Part shown: one piece after another, positions 38,849 to 58,010 of the stretch | Position numbering within the stretch: the first letter of the stretch is position 1 | How the letters are laid out: each line of letters starts with the position of its first letter | Virus record (IMG/VR): IMGVR_UViG_3300008116_000054 | Coordinates: 1-64,000 of that record | Length of the DNA: 64,000 nucleotides | Reading direction: 5' to 3' (one strand) | Origin: a virus | The notes under the pieces: generated by a model | What the model was told of the DNA's origin: nothing | The model's input: the letters and a program-made list of their open reading frames with translations, nothing else | Databases searched by the model: none | Position numbers and translations under genes: made by a program

Positions 38849-40390
38849 TTAAACACAATACATAACATACTTTGCCTGACCTGCGTCATATAGCCTTGTC
38901 CATCCAAGTTCTTCTGCGTGTTGTTTCTCTGACAGCAGCCTGTCGTCCATATTTGCGCGACAACGCAGTCTATTAAACGTATTATGATTGTCTGTCCACT
39001 GCCATCCTAAGGTCACAGACATCAAATTAAAACCTACAGCCTTTAAGCTGGAACCGTCAGCGTAGCGCAGATCTACAAACGACTGAATGAATCGTGGTTT
39101 AGATAACGTTTCTATACGCTTCAGAAGACGAGACAATCCGCCCTGAATCTGAAAACCAATCTTTGTTGCGACTCTGACCAAGTCTATGCCATCCTTGTGA
39201 CGACGATACGTTATAACCATCATTGGTTCTGAGTTAAGGACCAAAGCAATAGCAGTCGAGCATCTTGCTGAGCCCATAAGATGGTTGCTTTGCATAAAGG
39301 CAGCGGCATCGTCGACCGAGATGCTTTTAACTTCAAGTTTTCTAGCTCCTATCTTTTTGCTTAAACCCAATACATTGGCGACCATAGAACAGACTATGTC
39401 AGGAGTATTCTTTATTTCGTCCTGGCGAAACTGAAGTAGACGCACGTTGTTTTCTTTATATGTATATGCCTTTTTAATGTGGTATTGTTTGTCGCGCATC
39501 GAGTGTGAATATAGTCCGTCTACATCTACATATATAGTTTTATTGTCGTGCTTCAATATGATATCTGGCCTATATCTAATACCTTTTTCCAGCATCTCTG
39601 GGACGCCAAGATTGTAAGCCTCTGCATCTAACCCGCTGTTCTTAAACATGTTTATTGACAGAAGCTCCAAAGAAGAACGATGTTTATGATAATTATCCAA
39701 CCAGTCTTGCGCAGCGTCCCATCCAAGCTCTCTAGCGACATTGCGAAGCGAAGTAGGCCTTACTCCTTTTTCTTTACAGGAATCGACGACTATCCTGCCA
39801 TCTGGAAAAGATTGAATTCCCTTTTCTCTTAGAGTTTGAGATATAGAACTTGCAACCTTCATTGCTACGTCTTTGTTGAGCATAGCATTTTCTACACCGT
39901 AGCGTTCTAAGTTTGTCATAGACATCTTTGCGAACACTTCTTTATTTTGACTTGGAGCAGAAGTTCCGTAGCGGTCAATATTGGTAGACTTGATCTTATC
40001 CTTGATATCAGGGCTGCATGCAGGAGCTGCTCCGCCGTATTTGAGCTGATTAGTGGACTTTCTTTTGTTTTTGGTCTGTTGAGACTTGGAGGCTTCGACT
40101 GCCCTTTTTAAGATCTCTGGTCTGTTAGGATCAGACTTCATAGATTGTCTTACTTTTTCAACAATATCTTCTCTGTACATTGGATTGTTTTCAGAAAAGA
40201 ACTCTGATTTGTAGCAGCCACAAGACTGAGACTTACCGTGAAGAATAGTGTTGGGCGTCTTTATCAATCGCTCTGTTCCACAGTCACACCTACAGATCCA
40301 TCCAACCTGGCGACCGTCGTCTCCAAGTTTCTTTTCTACGAAAGTCCATCTATTGTATTTATCGTTTGCTTTTGCTGTAAGTCTAGACAT
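38849..40390 (-). CDS. Vsr-like homing endonuclease with zinc and NxxRYG repeats
   Basis: 513 residues. N-terminal zinc motif CRCDCG...SCGC (about 33-58), then repeats of (T/S)N..RYG...A (about 134-170), then a Vsr-like PD-(D/E)XK nuclease: YRPDIILK, VDVDGLYSH, LLQFRQDEI (about 270-325), and a C-terminal domain with GARKLEV, F...NHLMGSA and VDLRYADGSSLKAVGF. Same family as the gene at 53235 and as endonucleases reported with split inteins. AT-rich, own promoter box (TATAATAA, 40413-40406). It sits between the glycosyltransferase and the major capsid gene. Confidence 0.85.
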   Translation of the reverse strand: MSRLTAKANDKYNRWTFVEKKLGDDGRQVGWICRCDCGTERLIKTPNTILHGKSQSCGCYKSEFFSENNPMYREDIVEKVRQSMKSDPNRPEILKRAVEASKSQQTKNKRKSTNQLKYGGAAPACSPDIKDKIKSTNIDRYGTSAPSQNKEVFAKMSMTNLERYGVENAMLNKDVAMKVASSISQTLREKGIQSFPDGRIVVDSCKEKGVRPTSLRNVARELGWDAAQDWLDNYHKHRSSLELLSINMFKNSGLDAEAYNLGVPEMLEKGIRYRPDIILKHDNKTIYVDVDGLYSHSMRDKQYHIKKAYTYKENNVRLLQFRQDEIKNTPDIVCSMVANVLGLSKKIGARKLEVKSISVDDAAAFMQSNHLMGSARCSTAIALVLNSEPMMVITYRRHKDGIDLVRVATKIGFQIQGGLSRLLKRIETLSKPRFIQSFVDLRYADGSSLKAVGFNLMSVTLGWQWTDNHNTFNRLRCRANMDDRLLSEKQHAEELGWTRLYDAGQAKYVMYCV

Positions 40391-40405: not shown

Positions 40406-40413
40406 TTATTATA
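40406..40413 (-). promoter_or_regulatory. Late-type promoter box TATAATAA
   Basis: GTATAATAA on the minus strand; a start about 6 bases downstream begins right at the ribosome site GAGGTGAG of the Vsr-like gene. Confidence 0.5.
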
Positions 40414-40482
40414 CACAGAAGATGAATTAAGCAGTGGGAGAAATGGAGATCTTATATGGCACGCTGTTCGTATACTGATAAA

Positions 40483-50578: not shown

Positions 50579-53242
50579 TCAAAACGTCCAAAGAAATCCA
50601 CCGTCTACAGACTTATCGTCTTCCTCGTCATCGATCTCAGACAGCCTTCCTATTTTACCAAGCTTATCGGCATTAACCTCTGGATTAAACGGCAGGTTGT
50701 TGAGTTTCGCGTACTCTTCTGGAGTGGGCGCCTTGAAGAAATTTCCATTGTTATCAACCAGTTTTGCCATATCGACGTCCAAACCGGCAGATGAAAGCAC
50801 GATCTGGTTCTTGCCGAAAAGGTTCGTCAGCGGGTATCGTAAAGCATCCAGCCAGTGATCGTGCTCGCTGTCTGGAGTGTCTGATATCTGGCCAGCGGCA
50901 TCGGTTTTGTAGTGGTAGAGCTGGAACTCCCTTATCAGAGCCTGACATGTCTCCTGAGCAATGAAAAGCTTAGACTCGGCAGTGCCTGGAATCTTGAGCC
51001 ACTTCTTTATGATCTGTATGCCGGTGTTGATGTTTCCCTTGTCTGTGTTTGTCGAAGTCGGAAGGCCAAGCTTCCTCATCTCTACTGCGTCACCAGGATC
51101 CGCTTGGTCAGGAAAGTAGAGTTGGATACGGTATGGCTGATGCCACTTGTTCTTGATGTGGTGCATCCACGTGGGCCTTGATATATACGTCATGCCGTCG
51201 CATCTTACGACGTATATGTTCTCTTTTGCGTCCACGAAAAATACCACGAGCGTGTGCGGGTTTGACCATCCCCAGTCGATGCCGGCGTACGCTGGAAGAC
51301 CCATGTTGTGACAGTTGCCGCTCAGCGATATTACTCCGTTGCGGCGAACAAATAACCTAGACGAGGGCATCGTTACACAATAGACCATTCCATCGTAGTC
51401 TACTTCACCTATGTTTCCTTGTGTTTTATTAGAATATTCGCTCTTGTTGGTTCCGTTGTTGATGTAGTACGAACGATCTGCTGGCTTGTTGTTTGTCTTA
51501 AAGTGAAAATTAACTCTAAAACGTCTTAGGTACTCAGTCCCTGTGTTCTTGTGCGTTTTGCCTTGATTACCCTGCATTGAAAGAGAACTCTTATATCCCA
51601 ATCTAAAGCATAGCTCTTGAACATCGTTGGCAAGCTGCTCAGAGCCTGTTGAATAATAAGGCTGTTGCCTTGATCCGTCGAACATGTACGAGCCGTCCCC
51701 GAAGCATAGCCACTCCAAAAGGATCGATAGCTGCCTGCGGGAAGCTTGTTCAAGTATGTTCCTAGATATCAACTTGTTGACGGCAAACTTTAAAGGCTTT
51801 AAGTAATTATATAGTTCTTTGTTGTATACGGACCAGTTTGTCGTATAGTCAACCTGATCCCGAGCATCAGACTCTCTGTGAAGCTTGTTGGGCCAAGCTA
51901 TCGATGCCATAAGCCGCTCAACCTTGTCAGAGGCGTCTCTGCTCTTAGACTGAGAAACCTCTACCTTGTTGTGCCCCCACTCGTCGTTTGCTCTTGTCGA
52001 ACTCATAGAGCCTTCGCTCAGCCAAAGCCCCATGAAGGCCATAAACTGATCGCCGGTCATGAAGCTTATAGGAGATTTTATGTCCATGTTGTTTGCTGTA
52101 GAGCCGGAAAGCCAGGTAGCCGGTATGTAAAAATCGTTCAGCTCGTCAAGAGAGTCTGCTCGCTGCTTCAAAAGCTTTATCTCTTGCTTCTTTCTGAAGT
52201 TTCTACCGTGAAGGTACTCGACATCGTGGTTGGGAGTAACCAGAAGGTCGAGATGGTGCTTGCCTCCGCCTATCTCATTGTAAAGGTTTACCATCTTTCC
52301 CTTATAGTGATACGAGATGTGCTCTATCGGTTTCTGGTAGTTTAACACACCACCGTTGTCTAGGGTGGCTAGAGTGTCATACTCAGTAAGATCTTTAAAA
52401 AGCTTAAAGCCGTTGTTCGTCAAAACCTCAGTGTCGTCACTGAAGCATTTCTTGACGAATATATCGTGGTTGCACTCGCCAGGAAACTCTTTTCCGGTCA
52501 GCGACAACCACATCTGGTTCCAGGTCTTGACGTGCATGCGCTCGTCGAACTCTTTGTAGATGATCCCCTCGACCGACGGCTTTAGATTCATCAGCTGGGA
52601 CATCGCCCAGTCAGGACCCTCTGACAAGACCTTCTGCGCGAGCTCGTCTATAGACTTGAGCATCGGCGATTCTGAGACTTGATTCTTGGCGTCGCCGAGG
52701 CATATAGGAGCGAGTGGGCATTTCCCGCAGCCTATGTACATCTCGTATCTCTCGTACTCTTTCTTCCTCTGCTCGCCGAGCTTCTCGAACTCTGACGGAG
52801 ATCTCACGTCGAACGACTGCTGATCGATGTAGTATTCTTGGCGCTGCGTTCCAGATCGTGAGTCTGGGCATCGCTCGGTGAACTCAAATGCGGTCCAGCG
52901 ACGAACATGTCTGCCCTGCTTCTCGGCGTTCTCGATGGCTTGGTTCATGAGACCGTATCGCGACTTTCTGGTCGATATGCCCACGCGCAGCGGCTTACGG
53001 CCGCGCTTGGAGTCGAGCATACCGGAGATTTCTTTGTAGGCGCGTAGGCCCTCACCGGAGACTGTATCAATCTCGTCCACCACGACCAGCGGCACGTGTG
53101 GTCCATTGCAGTTGTGGTTGATGGTGCCGTCAGCTGTAACAAACGAATTTGACATCGGATTGGTCGGATCGTCGCTTGAACGAACCTCCAATTTCGCTAT
53201 TTGCTTTATGCCCGTGCGCTCGATTTTCGTTACCTTAGCCAT
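50579..53242 (-). CDS. Terminase large subunit, C-terminal gene, with split-intein C-half and a full intein
   Basis: 887 residues from ATG 53242 (AGAGG upstream; a TTG at 53257 is less likely). Order: residues 1-44 IntC of a split intein ending NHN; C45 begins the extein with LVVVDEID (Walker B, 52-59) and the ATPase end; C266-N643 a LAGLIDADG-type intein; C644 onward the RNase H-fold nuclease (YAGIDWGWSN, PDSEHDHWLDALRYPL). Without splicing neither ATPase nor nuclease is intact, so production of working terminase depends on trans-splicing with the 55755-58010 product. The terminase packages DNA through the portal. Extein length from this gene: about 465 residues. Confidence 0.93.
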   Translation of the reverse strand: MAKVTKIERTGIKQIAKLEVRSSDDPTNPMSNSFVTADGTINHNCNGPHVPLVVVDEIDTVSGEGLRAYKEISGMLDSKRGRKPLRVGISTRKSRYGLMNQAIENAEKQGRHVRRWTAFEFTERCPDSRSGTQRQEYYIDQQSFDVRSPSEFEKLGEQRKKEYERYEMYIGCGKCPLAPICLGDAKNQVSESPMLKSIDELAQKVLSEGPDWAMSQLMNLKPSVEGIIYKEFDERMHVKTWNQMWLSLTGKEFPGECNHDIFVKKCFSDDTEVLTNNGFKLFKDLTEYDTLATLDNGGVLNYQKPIEHISYHYKGKMVNLYNEIGGGKHHLDLLVTPNHDVEYLHGRNFRKKQEIKLLKQRADSLDELNDFYIPATWLSGSTANNMDIKSPISFMTGDQFMAFMGLWLSEGSMSSTRANDEWGHNKVEVSQSKSRDASDKVERLMASIAWPNKLHRESDARDQVDYTTNWSVYNKELYNYLKPLKFAVNKLISRNILEQASRRQLSILLEWLCFGDGSYMFDGSRQQPYYSTGSEQLANDVQELCFRLGYKSSLSMQGNQGKTHKNTGTEYLRRFRVNFHFKTNNKPADRSYYINNGTNKSEYSNKTQGNIGEVDYDGMVYCVTMPSSRLFVRRNGVISLSGNCHNMGLPAYAGIDWGWSNPHTLVVFFVDAKENIYVVRCDGMTYISRPTWMHHIKNKWHQPYRIQLYFPDQADPGDAVEMRKLGLPTSTNTDKGNINTGIQIIKKWLKIPGTAESKLFIAQETCQALIREFQLYHYKTDAAGQISDTPDSEHDHWLDALRYPLTNLFGKNQIVLSSAGLDVDMAKLVDNNGNFFKAPTPEEYAKLNNLPFNPEVNADKLGKIGRLSEIDDEEDDKSVDGGFLWTF
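51314..52447 (-). mobile_element. Intein 3 (LAGLIDADG-type) in the terminase, before the nuclease domain
   Basis: 378 residues, C266 to N643 of the C-terminal terminase protein. Block A CFSDDTEVLT, block B VTPNHDVEY (T-x-N-H), endonuclease motifs FMGLWLSEGS and LEWLCFGDGS, block F MVYCVTMPSSRLFVRRNG, and the end ISLSGN followed by C. The penultimate residue is Gly rather than the usual His. The extein junctions are KK/C and C at the +1 position. Confidence 0.9.
53111..53242 (-). mobile_element. Split intein 2, C-terminal half (IntC)
   Basis: 44 residues starting at its own ATG: MAKVTKIERTGIKQIAKLEV, then SNSFVTADGTINHN followed by C45. This is the block F and G region of an intein (..D.EV...F...G.I.HN/C). 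Length is close to known natural split-intein C-halves. Partner is 55755-56054. Confidence 0.93.
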
Positions 53243-54893
53243 CTGAACCTCTGTCAACGCTTAAGACCATCTTCGCCTGACCCGCGTCGTAGATCTTGAC
53301 CAAGCCAAGCTCTTTGGCGTACTCTTTCTGTGTCAATTTTCTCTCGTCCATGTTAGCCTTGCAGAACAGACGATTGTAGGTCTTGTCGTAGTCGGTCCAC
53401 TTCCATCCCAGCGTGGTGCCGACGTGCACGAAGCCCATGTCCTTGAGCGAGGCGACGTCGCCGTACCGCAGGTCGACGAACGTGTAGATCTTATCTATAT
53501 CGAACGTCTTTATAGCATACTTGAGCAGCTTGGAGTAACCGCCAACGACCACGGTGCTCAGCGCAGAAGCGAACCTTACTATTTTTACTTGACTGCCCTC
53601 GAACCTTAAGGAGAGCAGGACTTTTATCTGATCTACGTCCTTGAGGGCCAGATACACGGAAGCGGACGCGAACCCCATGAGATGGTTGGCCTTGAGGAAG
53701 GTCTTCGCCTCCGGTGCGGTCACTTGTCTTATATCAAGCTTCCTGGCATGGAGTTTATCTTTCACCGCGCCAGCCTTTACCGCTATCATAGAGTCGACGA
53801 TCGACCGCTTGTAGATCACCTCGTCTGCCCTGAACTGCAGGAGCCTTAAGTTAAACTCTTCTGCTTTTAGCCTTGCCTTCAGGTGGTATTTCTTGTGTAA
53901 TGTTTTGTCCGAGTGCCAGTATAGACCGTCGACGTTGACGTAGACGCGATCGGAGACCTTGAAGTCAGGTCTTATGTTGCATCCTTTTGCCGGGAACTTA
54001 TCGAACCTTGATAACATAGGATTTGAGCTCATTAGCGTTTCTATGTCGCTCATGGTAAAGTGCTCTTCGACTAGGCTGATAAAATCGCTCTCCGTAGCTG
54101 GTAGGTGCTTGGCATAGATCTTGCACACGAACGAGTAGCTTATCTTGTCTGCGAAGTTGAGCTTCCATATATCTTTGATGGATCTTCCGTCTAAGCTCTT
54201 AGCTACGCCGATCTCTTGAAGTTTTCGTAGCCTATCCGCTGGATCCGCCTTTGTCCTTTTAGATCTCTTTCTCTCGTTTAGTCTTAATCTTCTTTCGGCT
54301 CTGGTCTCTTCTTTCTTCTTCAAGGCCTCAGGGCTAAGGAAGCGGGACCTGTTCTTGTCTATCGTCTCTGGCAGGAGCAGCGGAGTGGACACGCCGTACC
54401 GCTGGAGGTTCGTGCTCGCTATGTCGTGGTATTTTTCCTTTATCCTCTGACTCATCTTTGCCCTGAAGTCGTCTGTGGTGTGGGTCGACGCACGGCTGTC
54501 CGACAGCTTCTTAGACTTTCTTCCAGGATGAGACTGACCGTAGAAAGCAACCTTGTACACCGGAGCCCACCACTCTCCGTGGTCTACGTCGATGAACTTG
54601 GCTTTCTTGTTGGAGGAAGAGTACGAGCTTGGGTCTATAAAAACTAGACCTTGATGGTTTGTATCGAGTGCGGCGATTATGTCCGCAAGCGATATCTTTC
54701 TTCTATTGGGGTGCTTTTGGCCGCATGTGACCACCTTCGTAGGCGTCGCCCACCACTCTCCGTGGTCTACGTCGATGAACTTGGCTTTCTTGTTCATGCC
54801 GCAGAAGGTTGAGACGTCTATAGACACTAGGCCGCCGTGCTTCTCCAGCAGAAGCTGCCGTATCTTGTCTGGTGATGTCCTGACGTTAGACAA
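53235..54893 (-). CDS. Vsr-like homing endonuclease in the fractured terminase gene
   Basis: About 552 residues from TTG 54893, chosen because AAGGGG is six bases upstream and a TATAATCC box lies at 54923-54916; an in-frame TTG at 54938 would lie upstream of that box. Two copies of a KKAKFIDVDHGEWWA module near the N-terminus, then a basic linker and the Vsr-like nuclease (IRPDFKVSD, VNVDGLYWHS, LLQFRADEV) and the same C-terminal domain as the 38849 gene (HARKLDI, F...NHLMGFA, VDLRYGDVASLKDMGF). Its stop lies 8 bases inside the IntC gene. The natural target is probably the uninterrupted terminase gene. Confidence 0.88.
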   Translation of the reverse strand: MSNVRTSPDKIRQLLLEKHGGLVSIDVSTFCGMNKKAKFIDVDHGEWWATPTKVVTCGQKHPNRRKISLADIIAALDTNHQGLVFIDPSSYSSSNKKAKFIDVDHGEWWAPVYKVAFYGQSHPGRKSKKLSDSRASTHTTDDFRAKMSQRIKEKYHDIASTNLQRYGVSTPLLLPETIDKNRSRFLSPEALKKKEETRAERRLRLNERKRSKRTKADPADRLRKLQEIGVAKSLDGRSIKDIWKLNFADKISYSFVCKIYAKHLPATESDFISLVEEHFTMSDIETLMSSNPMLSRFDKFPAKGCNIRPDFKVSDRVYVNVDGLYWHSDKTLHKKYHLKARLKAEEFNLRLLQFRADEVIYKRSIVDSMIAVKAGAVKDKLHARKLDIRQVTAPEAKTFLKANHLMGFASASVYLALKDVDQIKVLLSLRFEGSQVKIVRFASALSTVVVGGYSKLLKYAIKTFDIDKIYTFVDLRYGDVASLKDMGFVHVGTTLGWKWTDYDKTYNRLFCKANMDERKLTQKEYAKELGLVKIYDAGQAKMVLSVDRGSDG

Positions 54894-54915
54894 TATAATC
54901 CCCTTAGTGCCATAG

Positions 54916-54923
54916 GGATTATA
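54916..54923 (-). promoter_or_regulatory. Late-type promoter box TATAATCC
   Basis: GTATAATCCC on the minus strand; a start about 6 bases on gives a short leader with AAGGGG before TTG 54893. Would transcribe the endonuclease and the downstream IntC-terminase gene. Confidence 0.5.
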
Positions 54924-54976
54924 CCCGATATTTATCAATTAGCCTTGATTACGGTGCATTTTTTTTACAAAGCAGC

Positions 54977-55774
54977 TCATGGACCAATCCACCCCCTTCC
55001 CAGAAGCCTACTGCACGATGCTATTGCTTGCTCCGTAGCAGTGTCACGCTTTGCGAAGTTCTCGTCTTTCCACATCGGGCTAAGGTTGGTGTAGTGCTGC
55101 AGCTTTATGAGCTCTTCTTCGTTCTGAGCCTGAGAACAAGGACATATGTGGTCGATGTGCCAGCTACCAAAGTTGTCCCACGACATCCCCGGCTGGAACA
55201 AGGACTCCAGGTGTCTTCTAACTCCCTCTATGTTGAGCCCCAACAGCTTCTCGGCCTTGTCGTTCTTCTTGTAGCGCCTGTTGATCGAGTTGGTTATCCT
55301 CACCCTTATGCCGCGCACGAAAGCCGTTTCTGGATCGAATATCTTCCAGTGTGAAAAACAAAGTTTATGCTTGAAGGCATTGTTGTCGCATGAAGCATGG
55401 GAGCATTTCTTTTTAGGTTGCCTAATTCGCCACGCTTGATAATGCGTGCCACATAAGCCTTTTTTCTCAACCTTCTTTGTGCACCCAGAAATTGAGCACT
55501 CTGGGGCCTGTTTTAGTTTGTTGGCGTTGTAGTGCACAGAACAAAGCCCGTTGTGCTTTGCATTTTCTTTGCAGTCATATTCGGAGCATCTAGGTCGAGT
55601 TGCAAATCTATCTTTATCGTAATGGGACCTACACATGCCCCTGCGAAAGATAGAGGAACCACACTTGGTGCAGCCTTTATCTAGGCGGCATTCCTTGCAC
55701 GTCGTGTAGACATTCTTGTAGAGAGGCTTCTGGCAGGATTCACAGTAGTCGGCTTTACGCTTTAACTTCTGCAT
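54977..55774 (-). CDS. HNH homing endonuclease with four GxCxxHY zinc modules, in the fractured terminase gene
   Basis: 265 residues from ATG 55774, overlapping the IntN stop by 20 bases; a longer frame from 55897 lies over the IntN sequence. N-terminal CESCQK...CKECR, then four modules of the form C....C....(9-10)GxCxxHY/W (CTKCGSSIFRRGMCRSHY and so on). The HNH block is PGMSWDNFG, WHIDHICPCSQAQNEEEL and HYTNLSPMW, and the end is nearly that of the 44801 gene. Composition is less AT-rich than some other HNH genes here. Confidence 0.88.
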   Translation of the reverse strand: MQKLKRKADYCESCQKPLYKNVYTTCKECRLDKGCTKCGSSIFRRGMCRSHYDKDRFATRPRCSEYDCKENAKHNGLCSVHYNANKLKQAPECSISGCTKKVEKKGLCGTHYQAWRIRQPKKKCSHASCDNNAFKHKLCFSHWKIFDPETAFVRGIRVRITNSINRRYKKNDKAEKLLGLNIEGVRRHLESLFQPGMSWDNFGSWHIDHICPCSQAQNEEELIKLQHYTNLSPMWKDENFAKRDTATEQAIASCSRLLGRGWIGP

Positions 55775-56054
55775 GCGCTCGCGTTGAGGTGCTTTCCAAG
55801 GATGAGATCTCGTCGGCGTCGGTGAGGTGCTGAAGCTCGATCCATCCGCGCTGGGTCCAGACTTTGTGGTCGAGGGTTCCTTCGATGACTCTTCCATCTT
55901 CTAGCTCTATCCTTATGCACTCGGCGTCTTCTAGCTCGTTGCCGAGGACCTCGACGAAGCCGGTGGTGTCTTTGATAAAATCGCCTGGCTTGAAATCTGC
56001 CAATGATCTTATTGTACCATGCACATCGGTTGACGTAGCGGAGGAAACCAGGCA
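55755..56054 (-). mobile_element. Split intein 2, N-terminal half (IntN)
   Basis: 99 residues, C653 to the stop. Block A CLVSSATSTDVHGTIRSLAD, FKPGDFI, and block B EGTLDHKVWTQRGWIEL (T-x-x-H). The last dozen residues (SSLESTSTRAHAEVKA) are likely a disordered end. The preceding extein residue is A652. Fits the length of natural IntN parts. Confidence 0.93.
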
Positions 56055-58010
56055 CGCTCGCAGCGTGCACGGGAGCACTTCAAGTGTGACTTTCTCACTC
56101 TTGATGTTGAACACTGACTTCTCCATCGTCATCTTCTCTAGGATCTTGTTCTCTTCGCTGACCTTCGGTGGGTTCACTATCGGCTTTATTCGGTCTGAAA
56201 GAAGGAATTTCTGCTGATACTCGTAGCATCGTTTTGCCTGAGAAAGGATCGCGCCCACGTGCACCACATCGCGCTGATCGTGCATCAGCACTAGAAGCTC
56301 AGCTATGGCCATGCCGAGGGTGTTGTGGCTGATGAAGCCGTTCGACCAGTACGCGTGATCGACGTCTACTTCAAGATCGTAGAAGTAATGTTTGCCAAAG
56401 GCAACTGAATCTACGGTCTCGTAACACCCCCTCCTGACGAAGGAAAGGTAGTCGGCCCAATCATATTCCTCTAGGCGTTTCGCTAGATCTATGAAATAAT
56501 CGATCTTGTAACCGTAGACATAAAGCTCCTTAGCCTTCTCGCCAGATCCCCAAAGATCTTTAGAATACTTTATATCGGAGTGGGTCTTTTTTCCCGCCTC
56601 GAGACGCCAGTATCCATTCGCGATCTCATACTTGTCTTTTATAAAAGATGCAAAGGGTTTCAACAATTTAGACGGATAGCGAAACTGCTCGTTCATCTTA
56701 GCGCTGTAGATCTTGAAGGCCTCGCGCTTAGAGAACAATGGCATCAAATATTCTGGTAGAGCGGTTTTATAATCGACGCAGTGATACTCCACTACGTGGT
56801 CTTTAACAAACTTAGTTGTAGAAGGCTTGCGTCGTTTTTTGTTGATGACGGCATGAACACCGAATAAATTCAAAATCTGAGCTATTTGTTTTATGAGCTC
56901 TGGATTGGCTAACGTTATCGAGTCTTTGGAGCCATCGGTCTCCATCATTCCAGATATAAAACCAGCCAGAAAACTTGGACTATGGTTCAATGTCTTCAGC
57001 TTTTTGAAATAGCAGAGTTCGCCCTCGATAATGGAGTCGCAGTATTCTCTTAAAGCCTTGCTACAGATACCAGCTATACTGAGATTTGGCGATCTTTTGT
57101 CATATTTCACTTTTGGTTCTACGCCAAAATGTTTGACTATAGTATCTATATATATTGCTAATTGATCTTTATCTTTTGCGGCAAAAGATATGGCATTATC
57201 AAAGCGACTAACAGAACCATCTCCGGTTATGCAGCCAACAAGCCATCCTAGTTCGTAATCGTTAGAAGACGTGTCTACTAAGGCACCTAGTGACTCTAAG
57301 GACCTATAGATCAACTGGCCCGGAATAAGATTTTTCATGTAGACCCAGTCGATCTTGCCGGTCTCGGGGTCAAGGGCTTGAACACGATGCTTTAAGGAAC
57401 CAGTCAAAGACCATGCGCCATCTTTGGTAAGATGTTTGGTAGTAATGGTTACGCCATCTTTAATGCCTTCGTCAAAAGTTTCGACCACGGGTTTCCAGGA
57501 CCAGCCGGTCCAAACTAAATCGCCAACCTTAACGTTTTGTACATATTTGGTACCACTATTGGTAATGATTACAGTATCTTGCGAAACGCACTTACCGCTG
57601 CCCCTTCCTGCAACATACAGTAATTCTTGGATATTTTGCGGATTGTTGTTGTTCGTGCATATGTCGTACACGTCCCAAACTGCATGAAAAGGAGTGGTGT
57701 CTGCATACCTGGAGACCTTGCAGTCTGGCAGGTGTAGGTTGAAGAAGTACCGGATAAAGTTCTTGAGGTCTTTCTCCGTGCGGCACGGCGTTAGCAGTAT
57801 ACGCTCCAGCTGCTCTGGCGTAAACTTGGACGCGTTCTCTGAGATCTTGCGGTTTATCACCTCCTGGCGCGCAGCCTTGGTCTCCTCGATCTTCTTCTGC
57901 TTGATCTTTGGTCGGTCGATTATAGACTTATAGTGCCCGGTGCAGTAGCCTCTGGACTTCAACGGTTTGCTGCAGCCTTCTACGGTGCATGTCCTGTTCT
58001 TACTGTCCAT
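55755..58010 (-). CDS. Terminase large subunit, N-terminal gene, with Walker A intein and split-intein N-half
   Basis: 751 residues. Order: 1-30 a small zinc module (CTVEGC...GYCTGHY); helical region; Walker A LLYVAGRGSGK ending at K140; C141-N563 a LAGLIDADG intein; T564 resumes the extein (TLGMAIAELLVL); then ATPase residues to A652; C653-A751 the N-half of a split intein. The Walker A threonine of GK(T) is therefore only joined to the lysine after splicing. Start ATG at 58010, overlapping the small subunit-like gene by 11 bases. Extein from this gene: about 229 residues; total with the partner about 694. Confidence 0.93.
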   Translation of the reverse strand: MDSKNRTCTVEGCSKPLKSRGYCTGHYKSIIDRPKIKQKKIEETKAARQEVINRKISENASKFTPEQLERILLTPCRTEKDLKNFIRYFFNLHLPDCKVSRYADTTPFHAVWDVYDICTNNNNPQNIQELLYVAGRGSGKCVSQDTVIITNSGTKYVQNVKVGDLVWTGWSWKPVVETFDEGIKDGVTITTKHLTKDGAWSLTGSLKHRVQALDPETGKIDWVYMKNLIPGQLIYRSLESLGALVDTSSNDYELGWLVGCITGDGSVSRFDNAISFAAKDKDQLAIYIDTIVKHFGVEPKVKYDKRSPNLSIAGICSKALREYCDSIIEGELCYFKKLKTLNHSPSFLAGFISGMMETDGSKDSITLANPELIKQIAQILNLFGVHAVINKKRRKPSTTKFVKDHVVEYHCVDYKTALPEYLMPLFSKREAFKIYSAKMNEQFRYPSKLLKPFASFIKDKYEIANGYWRLEAGKKTHSDIKYSKDLWGSGEKAKELYVYGYKIDYFIDLAKRLEEYDWADYLSFVRRGCYETVDSVAFGKHYFYDLEVDVDHAYWSNGFISHNTLGMAIAELLVLMHDQRDVVHVGAILSQAKRCYEYQQKFLLSDRIKPIVNPPKVSEENKILEKMTMEKSVFNIKSEKVTLEVLPCTLRACLVSSATSTDVHGTIRSLADFKPGDFIKDTTGFVEVLGNELEDAECIRIELEDGRVIEGTLDHKVWTQRGWIELQHLTDADEISSLESTSTRAHAEVKA
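56322..57590 (-). mobile_element. Intein 1 (LAGLIDADG) at the terminase Walker A lysine
   Basis: 423 residues, C141 to N563. Block A CVSQDTVIITNSGT, block B SLKHRVQALD (the conserved His), LAGLIDADG motifs LGWLVGCITGDGS and LAGFISGMMETDGS, block F YFYDLEVDVDHAYWSNG and end FISHN followed by T. A complete splicing and homing intein. The site, between K and T of GxxxxGK(T), is a common intein position because the nucleotide-binding loop is highly conserved. Confidence 0.95.

Follow-up and report, generated by a model that had tools for sequence, protein, structure and literature searches.

How does one split intein come to hold two unrelated endonuclease genes? The question is raised by a phage gene for the terminase large subunit (terL) in the stretch of 64,000 nucleotides (nt) analyzed here, which comprises positions 1 to 64,000 of the IMG/VR virus record IMGVR_UViG_3300008116_000054 (108,514 bases) and is called the window. 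In this window terL lies on the minus strand, is spread over two open reading frames (ORFs; 58010-55755 and 53242-50579) and contains three inteins, with a spliced length of 694 amino acids (aa). One of these inteins is split into an N-terminal half (IntN) and a C-terminal half (IntC), and in the gap of 2.5 kb between them lie two intact genes, one HNH and one Vsr-like, both codirectional with terL, at the coordinates given in an initial annotation of this DNA, of which only the HNH start calls for caution. The best explanation is that a mobile split intein resides in terL and offers, between its halves, a modular slot for cargo, with an HNH gene beside IntN and an EDxHD gene beside IntC, a reading to which a probability of about two in three is assigned.

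The split intein and its two nucleases

The element consists of the following features:

55755..56054, minus strand: IntN, 99 aa, starting with CLVSSATSTDVHG, with Cys1 at 56054 and the block B His in GTLDHKV; ORF stop at 55755
54977..55897, minus strand: HNH homing-endonuclease-like gene with Cys/His repeats; start at 55774 (initial annotation) or at ATG 55897
54918..54924, minus strand: GTATAAT promoter-like box upstream of the Vsr-like gene
53235..54893, minus strand: Vsr-like (EDxHD) endonuclease gene, 552 aa; phrog_3339 homing endonuclease, 1.2e-38
53111..53242, minus strand: IntC, 44 aa, ATG at 53242, ending ...GTINHN at 53111

The host gene is broken exactly at the intein, with IntN and IntC on separate ORFs, and the insertion site is corroborated by relatives in which extein 2 is fused directly to extein 3. 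Cys1, the block B His and the terminal Asn with the +1 Cys behind it do not vary among 12 aligned alleles; in the window the +1 Cys, that of CNGPHVPLVVVDEID, stands directly after the terminal Asn of IntC. These are the motifs expected of a splicing intein, in which the +1 residue is Cys, Ser or Thr. Because the splicing motifs are intact, the TerL halves are probably made as two proteins and rejoined by trans-splicing. When a profile of the 12 IntN sequences was compared with solved structures, the gp41-1 intein was the best match (1.7e-6) and NrdJ-1 was also found (E 0.009). Judged by its sequence, the terL intein is split canonically, at the endonuclease position, and is not of the atypical kind with a short IntN, a distinction made in PMC11923092. 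A search of genome contigs with the IntN profile gave at least one match among the matches listed. Terminase-like ORFs ending in an IntN-like stretch, with an HNH gene next, were also seen at loci L149, L153, L154 and L151; the genes following the first three match HNH_3 (2.4e-15, 3.6e-19 and 1.6e-17, respectively), that of L151 was judged by eye, and all four are apparently fractured terminases at another site.

The HNH protein matches the phrog_5351 HNH endonuclease (2.1e-7) and no Pfam family at 0.1, and its core HIDH...N(L)...NxxK is invariant in four aligned sequences. The initial annotation let the gene overlap IntN by 20 nt, which holds if Met 55774 is the start, but this Met is missing from all three aligned relatives (L019, L026 and L049). 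An ATG at 55897 followed by an open frame is kept in all five HNH-bearing split alleles. Among six of the eight HNH-less split alleles (the set without L021 and L146), three lack this ATG, and in the other three its frame is closed by a stop codon within IntN. Since the ATG and the open frame track the presence of HNH and Met 55774 is not conserved, the gene may start at 55897, inside IntN, giving an overlap of 143 nt, with the caution that the relatives offer other in-frame ATG, GTG or TTG starts. Full-length relatives of the HNH protein lie at the terL site in eight of nine loci, the ninth being a 24% match; for the nuclease domain alone, relatives occur elsewhere, with up to 55% identity in the same phage. 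One record of 134,893 bases (L007), in which the proteins of the locus are 100% identical to those of the window, contains nine HNH-profile and two Vsr matches, more than each of the other eight records searched, some of which are fragments.

The Vsr-like protein, of the EDxHD/Vsr type, has N-terminal repeats, a nuclease core at residues ∼279-377 and a GNAT-like C-terminal domain at ∼384-552. No Pfam match above the cut-off was obtained, and phmmer found no match among PDB sequences up to E 10. In an AlphaFold2 model built from eight sequences (mean pLDDT 70), residues 279-377 match the catalytic domain of I-Bth0305I (PDB 3r3p; Z 9.8 over 92 residues, rmsd 3.1), and residues 384-552 match GNAT acetyltransferases (Z up to 10.8), with Mom of phage Mu close (Z 9.6). 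RPD, DGLY.H, YH and QFR..E are invariant across the eight sequences. By the model and the alignment together, the nuclease core of the protein is Vsr/I-Bth0305I-like and its acidic and His residues are conserved; it resembles I-Bth0305I in this core and adds the GNAT-like domain, the matched entry being the catalytic domain only. Both names, EDxHD and Vsr, occur in PMC12350094. The two endonucleases are thus indeed unrelated, as had been proposed, with different folds, an HNH motif in one and a Vsr/I-Bth0305I-like core in the other. Although the longest ORF begins at 54938, the TTG at 54893 stands where L010, L020 and L021 have their initial Met, and this start is therefore retained. At its other end the Vsr-like gene stops at 53235 and overlaps IntC by 8 nt. 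Measured from the longest Vsr ORF, the spacing between HNH and Vsr is 38 bp.

The region of the GNAT/Mom-like fold corresponds to 53238-53762, a nuclease being fused here to a possible modifying domain. The window has a second Vsr-like homing endonuclease gene at 38849-40390, 33% identical in the alignment and with its own GTATAAT box at 40408-40414; it gives a weak match to Mom-like DNA modification (phrog_1384, 1.7e-4), which the intein-site copies do not.

Both genes are under purifying selection. The ratio of nonsynonymous to synonymous differences (pN/pS) of HNH is 0.19-0.20 against L026 and L019 and 0.37 against L049, and that of Vsr is 0.30-0.34 against L010, L020 and L021 and 0.45 against L146, values that are approximate because synonymous sites are mostly saturated. 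This bears on the earlier proposal that one of the two may have taken over from the other in homing, in which case the other would now be a decaying relic. Homing theory does expect decay once an element is fixed; however, both genes are full length and keep their catalytic residues, pN is well below pS for both, though with mostly saturated synonymous sites, and both are intact and identical in contigs of other metagenomes. Displacement is therefore considered very unlikely.

Occupancy of the same site in related phages

Relatives were searched with the terminase and intein sequences and with both nucleases. In one of the searches of the first kind the best 80 of 196 relatives were kept, so that the survey is partial, and loci that did not span both exteins were excluded before counting. 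The 148 loci spanning the site, window included, contained many repeat fetches of the same contigs and were reduced to 55 clusters at 97% identity, of which 41 are empty at the site, 13 carry a split intein and one carries a contiguous intein with a LAGLIDADG_2 endonuclease (L093). The split alleles carry the following cargo:

window: HNH, then Vsr, forward
L026: HNH, then inverted Vsr
L049: HNH, then a related PHROG-3339/DUF7487-type nuclease
L019: HNH only
L085: a different, EndoVII-type HNH
L010, L020, L021, L146: Vsr only
L032: inverted Vsr only
L008, L013: Pol-beta thumb/palm protein and an unknown protein; no recognised nuclease
L046: trypsin-like protease (PF13365, 1.5e-6) at L046:7125-7868; no recognised nuclease; single contig

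Two nucleases are present in three of the 13 split alleles, and the pair and orientation of the window were found in the window type only. The idea that fractured terminases might commonly carry both genes thus finds no support among these alleles, in which the comparison recommended by the initial annotation uncovered both HNH-only and Vsr-only forms. The order is regular: HNH of the window family adjoins IntN in 4/4 alleles that have it, and a second nuclease, where present, adjoins IntC in 3/3. L020 and L021 are close to each other (93% nt identity over 3.8 kb). Every one of the 14 occupied clusters has Cys at +1; the 41 empty ones have Cys (23), Val (9), Leu (8) or Thr (1) there, with Leu in the closest of them.

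The three alleles without a recognised nuclease indicate that these nucleases are dispensable for persistence of the element. All Pol-beta-like relatives found (8/8 loci) lie at the terL site; the structure model of the unknown partner protein is of low confidence (mean pLDDT 52). In a Pol-beta-bearing phage record of 109,902 bases no Vsr match was obtained and the HNH profile matched only the terminase zinc finger, so that the Pol-beta-bearing element appears to be unaccompanied by window-type nucleases, with the reservation that records may be fragments.

As the data are metagenomic, an assembly chimera had to be considered. HNH and Vsr recur at 100% aa identity in four other IMG/VR contigs that span the site and come from four metagenomes, and three further contigs carry part of the window arrangement. 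This repetition, together with the overlapping genes and the open frames, makes a chimera scarcely credible.

The distribution also bears on whether the nucleases serve the phage itself, either by HNH-assisted packaging as in HK97 or by DNA modification through the GNAT/Mom-like domain. The HNH protein encoded beside the HK97 terminase acts in cos cleavage, according to PMC10448857, and the C-terminal domain of the Vsr-like protein models as GNAT-like, with Mom among the tied matches. Against such service, 41 of the 55 clusters are empty at the site, and a Vsr relative was not found in seven of nine relative records searched, which may be fragments. A role of this kind is accordingly regarded as improbable, if somewhat less so than displacement.

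A promoter-like box offers a further view of the cargo. GTATAAT occurs ten times in the window where 3.16 copies are expected, a number reached by none of 100 shuffles, and eight of the ten copies lie at most 50 nt upstream of a same-strand ORF start (the Vsr start being taken as 54893). In split alleles with an EDxHD-type gene the box stands just upstream of that gene in 8/8 cases, both inverted copies included, and in L019 and L026 it is also found before IntC; an isolated copy falls within the Vsr gene of L010, but on the opposite strand. Since only 6/34 Vsr relatives elsewhere have it near their crudely placed starts, the box belongs to these phages and not to the Vsr family. The pattern supports the idea that the Vsr-like gene may have arrived as an autonomous unit, and likewise the idea of a possible separate transcription of the second TerL half.

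Probable movement of the element and origin of its cargo

Presence or absence of the element differs between nearly identical phages. The nt identity between L013 and L022 is 94.9% in the 5.8 kb upstream of the site and 94.0% in the 7.2 kb downstream of it, yet L013 contains the split intein, loaded with Pol-beta cargo, whereas L022 is uninterrupted at the site and has intein 1 instead. As phages so alike differ at the site, the element comes or goes. Extein 2, between both insertion sites, is only 75% identical between the two; since the bins beside the site are short, this drop in extein 2 is the one part of the identity gradients that was used. L019 carries HNH only and shares its metagenome number with L022; on the two sides of the site these phages are 92% and 85% identical.

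The intein halves diverge more than the exteins in two comparisons. Between L013 and L019 exteins 2 and 3 are 84 and 90% identical in nt, but IntN and IntC only 75 and 76%; between the window and L008 extein 3 is 97% identical in aa (81% nt), but IntN and IntC 63 and 59% (66 and 57% nt). This suggests, on sequence divergence, that the intein halves were replaced or moved together with their cargo. The initial annotation had suggested a comparison of codon use and divergence between the two genes. GC content at third codon positions is 0.60 for HNH and 0.66 for Vsr, similar to exteins 1, 3 and 4 (0.60-0.72), and thus gives no sign of recent arrival for either gene; their divergence shows purifying selection on both.

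The anatomy of the locus, the range of alleles at a single site, the gain or loss between nearly identical phages and the selection on both genes are direct observations; splicing, cleavage, homing and the way in which the genes entered are inferred from them. A mechanism can be proposed on this basis. Trans-splicing of the split intein would restore TerL, and because the halves need not be contiguous, genes could be carried between them without destroying TerL. In the window, HNH in this slot overlaps IntN, and the Vsr-like/EDxHD gene, preceded by a promoter-like box of its own, adjoins IntC. The most likely route of entry for the latter is as a free-standing, autonomous endonuclease gene. 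Probably at least one of the two enzymes cleaves terL alleles without the element or without that nuclease, and repair would then spread the unit.

The initial annotation suggested that two enzymes could mark successive invasions. Independent acquisition of the HNH and Vsr-like genes is indeed favoured, because HNH-only and Vsr-only alleles exist, the Vsr-like gene has its box and the relatives of the two genes are distributed differently; the order of events is left undecided by the trees. In the DNA tree of IntN plus IntC the window groups with Vsr-only alleles (85/82), whereas by pairwise identity its IntC is nearest to that of the HNH-only L019 (85% nt). The Vsr tree has 37 rows, including 29 of 41 relatives elsewhere, and places the window group apart from L146/L026/L032. 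Among the 34 of these 41 relatives inspected, a simple pattern test revealed none with a convincing IntC downstream; the single pattern match looks like chance.

Alternatively, the HNH and EDxHD pair may be ancestral to the split intein, with single-nuclease alleles arising by loss. The more distant L049 already has HNH beside IntN and a PHROG-3339-type nuclease beside IntC, and whichever gene comes next, Vsr or IntC, has the promoter-like box ahead of it, both in HNH-only and in Vsr-bearing alleles. However, the right-hand nucleases differ, being a forward Vsr in one case and an inverted Vsr on another branch (although one clade is allowed), and the L049 right-hand protein is matched by the Vsr query over query residues 16-223 only. 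Even with an old pair, then, this position of the slot seems to have undergone replacement, and an ancestral pair is judged less likely than independent acquisition, though a live alternative and the strongest of the rival accounts considered.

Several observations weigh against a mobile split intein with modular cargo. The window and L010 are equally diverged in exteins and intein halves (72-77% nt), three split alleles have no recognised nuclease, and the gaps of L008, L013, L046 and L085 lack a GTATAAT box. Trees of IntN plus IntC (protein and DNA, 11 alleles) are poorly supported and too weak for ordering, and a single clade of all Vsr genes at the terL site is allowed (p-AU 0.21). L019, L020, L021, L026, L032, L046, L049 and L093 are single-contig alleles, and purifying selection would also fit non-homing roles.

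The rest of terL is composed as follows:

55755..58010, minus strand: first TerL half-gene (extein 1, LAGLIDADG intein 1, extein 2, IntN)
57591-58010, minus strand: extein 1
56322-57590, minus strand: contiguous LAGLIDADG intein 1, 423 aa, inside Walker A between GRGSGK and T; LAGLIDADG_3 1.4e-9 (Pfam)
56055-56321, minus strand: extein 2
50579..53242, minus strand: second TerL half-gene; phrog_5653 terminase large subunit, 1.2e-20
52448-53110, minus strand: extein 3
51314-52447, minus strand: contiguous LAGLIDADG intein 3, 378 aa, in the C-terminal half of TerL; LAGLIDADG_3 7.2e-7
50579-51313, minus strand: extein 4

The two contiguous inteins (56322-57590 and 51314-52447) also look mobile: intein 1 is 94% identical to the L022 copy, with extein 1 at only 64%, and intein 3 is 91% identical to the L031 copy, with extein 4 at only 70%. 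At the TerL N-terminus (57933-57989) lies a zinc-finger-like segment (CTVEGCSKPLKSRGYCTGH), which belongs to the same PHROG family as the HNH-gene repeats (phrog_5351; 2.6e-6 and 2.1e-7, respectively). Its CxxxxC..CxxH pattern was found in 19 of 53 terminase representatives scanned, and the HNH profile matches this part of TerL at E 7e-5 to 2.8e-4 in three records. The segment is possibly a domesticated piece of a homing endonuclease.

Relation to known systems and meaning

Split inteins with an endonuclease gene are known, and so are introns that contain two endonucleases. Dassa et al. reportedly described, in 2009, fractured genes in which split inteins go together with Vsr-like/EDxHD endonucleases. 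They resemble the window locus in that a phage gene is split at the canonical endonuclease position with free nuclease genes in the gap, with a gp41-1-like IntN and an EDxHD/Vsr nuclease; the window differs in its two nucleases of different folds in one gap, in a terL with three inteins, and in cargo at the terL site that varies among relatives, some of it being genes other than nucleases. AceL-TerL and other atypically split TerL inteins also exist; AceL-TerL is likewise a split intein in a terminase, whereas the window intein is split canonically, with an IntN of 99 aa and an IntC of 44 aa. In PMC6892783, the PolB split intein of the jumbo phage MIJ3 has one HNH gene in its gap, in agreement with the statement of the initial annotation that a fractured gene as a rule contains a single endonuclease; it shares the HNH gene in the gap with the window and differs in having one nuclease and another host gene. 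The tape-measure intron of ICP1 M4, described with two HNH-3 genes in PMC10448857, likewise has two homing-endonuclease genes in one intervening sequence and a content that changes between similar flanks, but it is an RNA intron with both genes of one family, whereas the window has an intein and two folds. Within the open-licence PMC literature, which does not include the founding paper of 2009, no report was found of two different-fold endonucleases in one split intein, nor of non-nuclease cargo in a split-intein slot.

At one site of one gene, related phages thus display empty, contiguous, one-nuclease, two-nuclease and non-nuclease states, and the states differ even in phages whose flanks of the site are 94-95% identical. 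The usual explanation of naturally split inteins is that they are by-products of homing. With the alleles assembled here, the questions of how split inteins originate and how homing endonucleases turn over can be put to a direct test, namely which enzyme cuts which allele and whether the cargo rides along. They suggest that an essential gene can contain, in such a split element, an open slot which genes enter and leave. In a wider form, put forward here only tentatively, the split intein would be more than a carrier of homing enzymes, namely a general mobile gene-hosting slot, and TerL, restored through trans-splicing, a safe docking site for any accessory genes, among them the Pol-beta-like protein with its unknown partner, the trypsin-like protease and paired nucleases, exchanged between phages as a unit.

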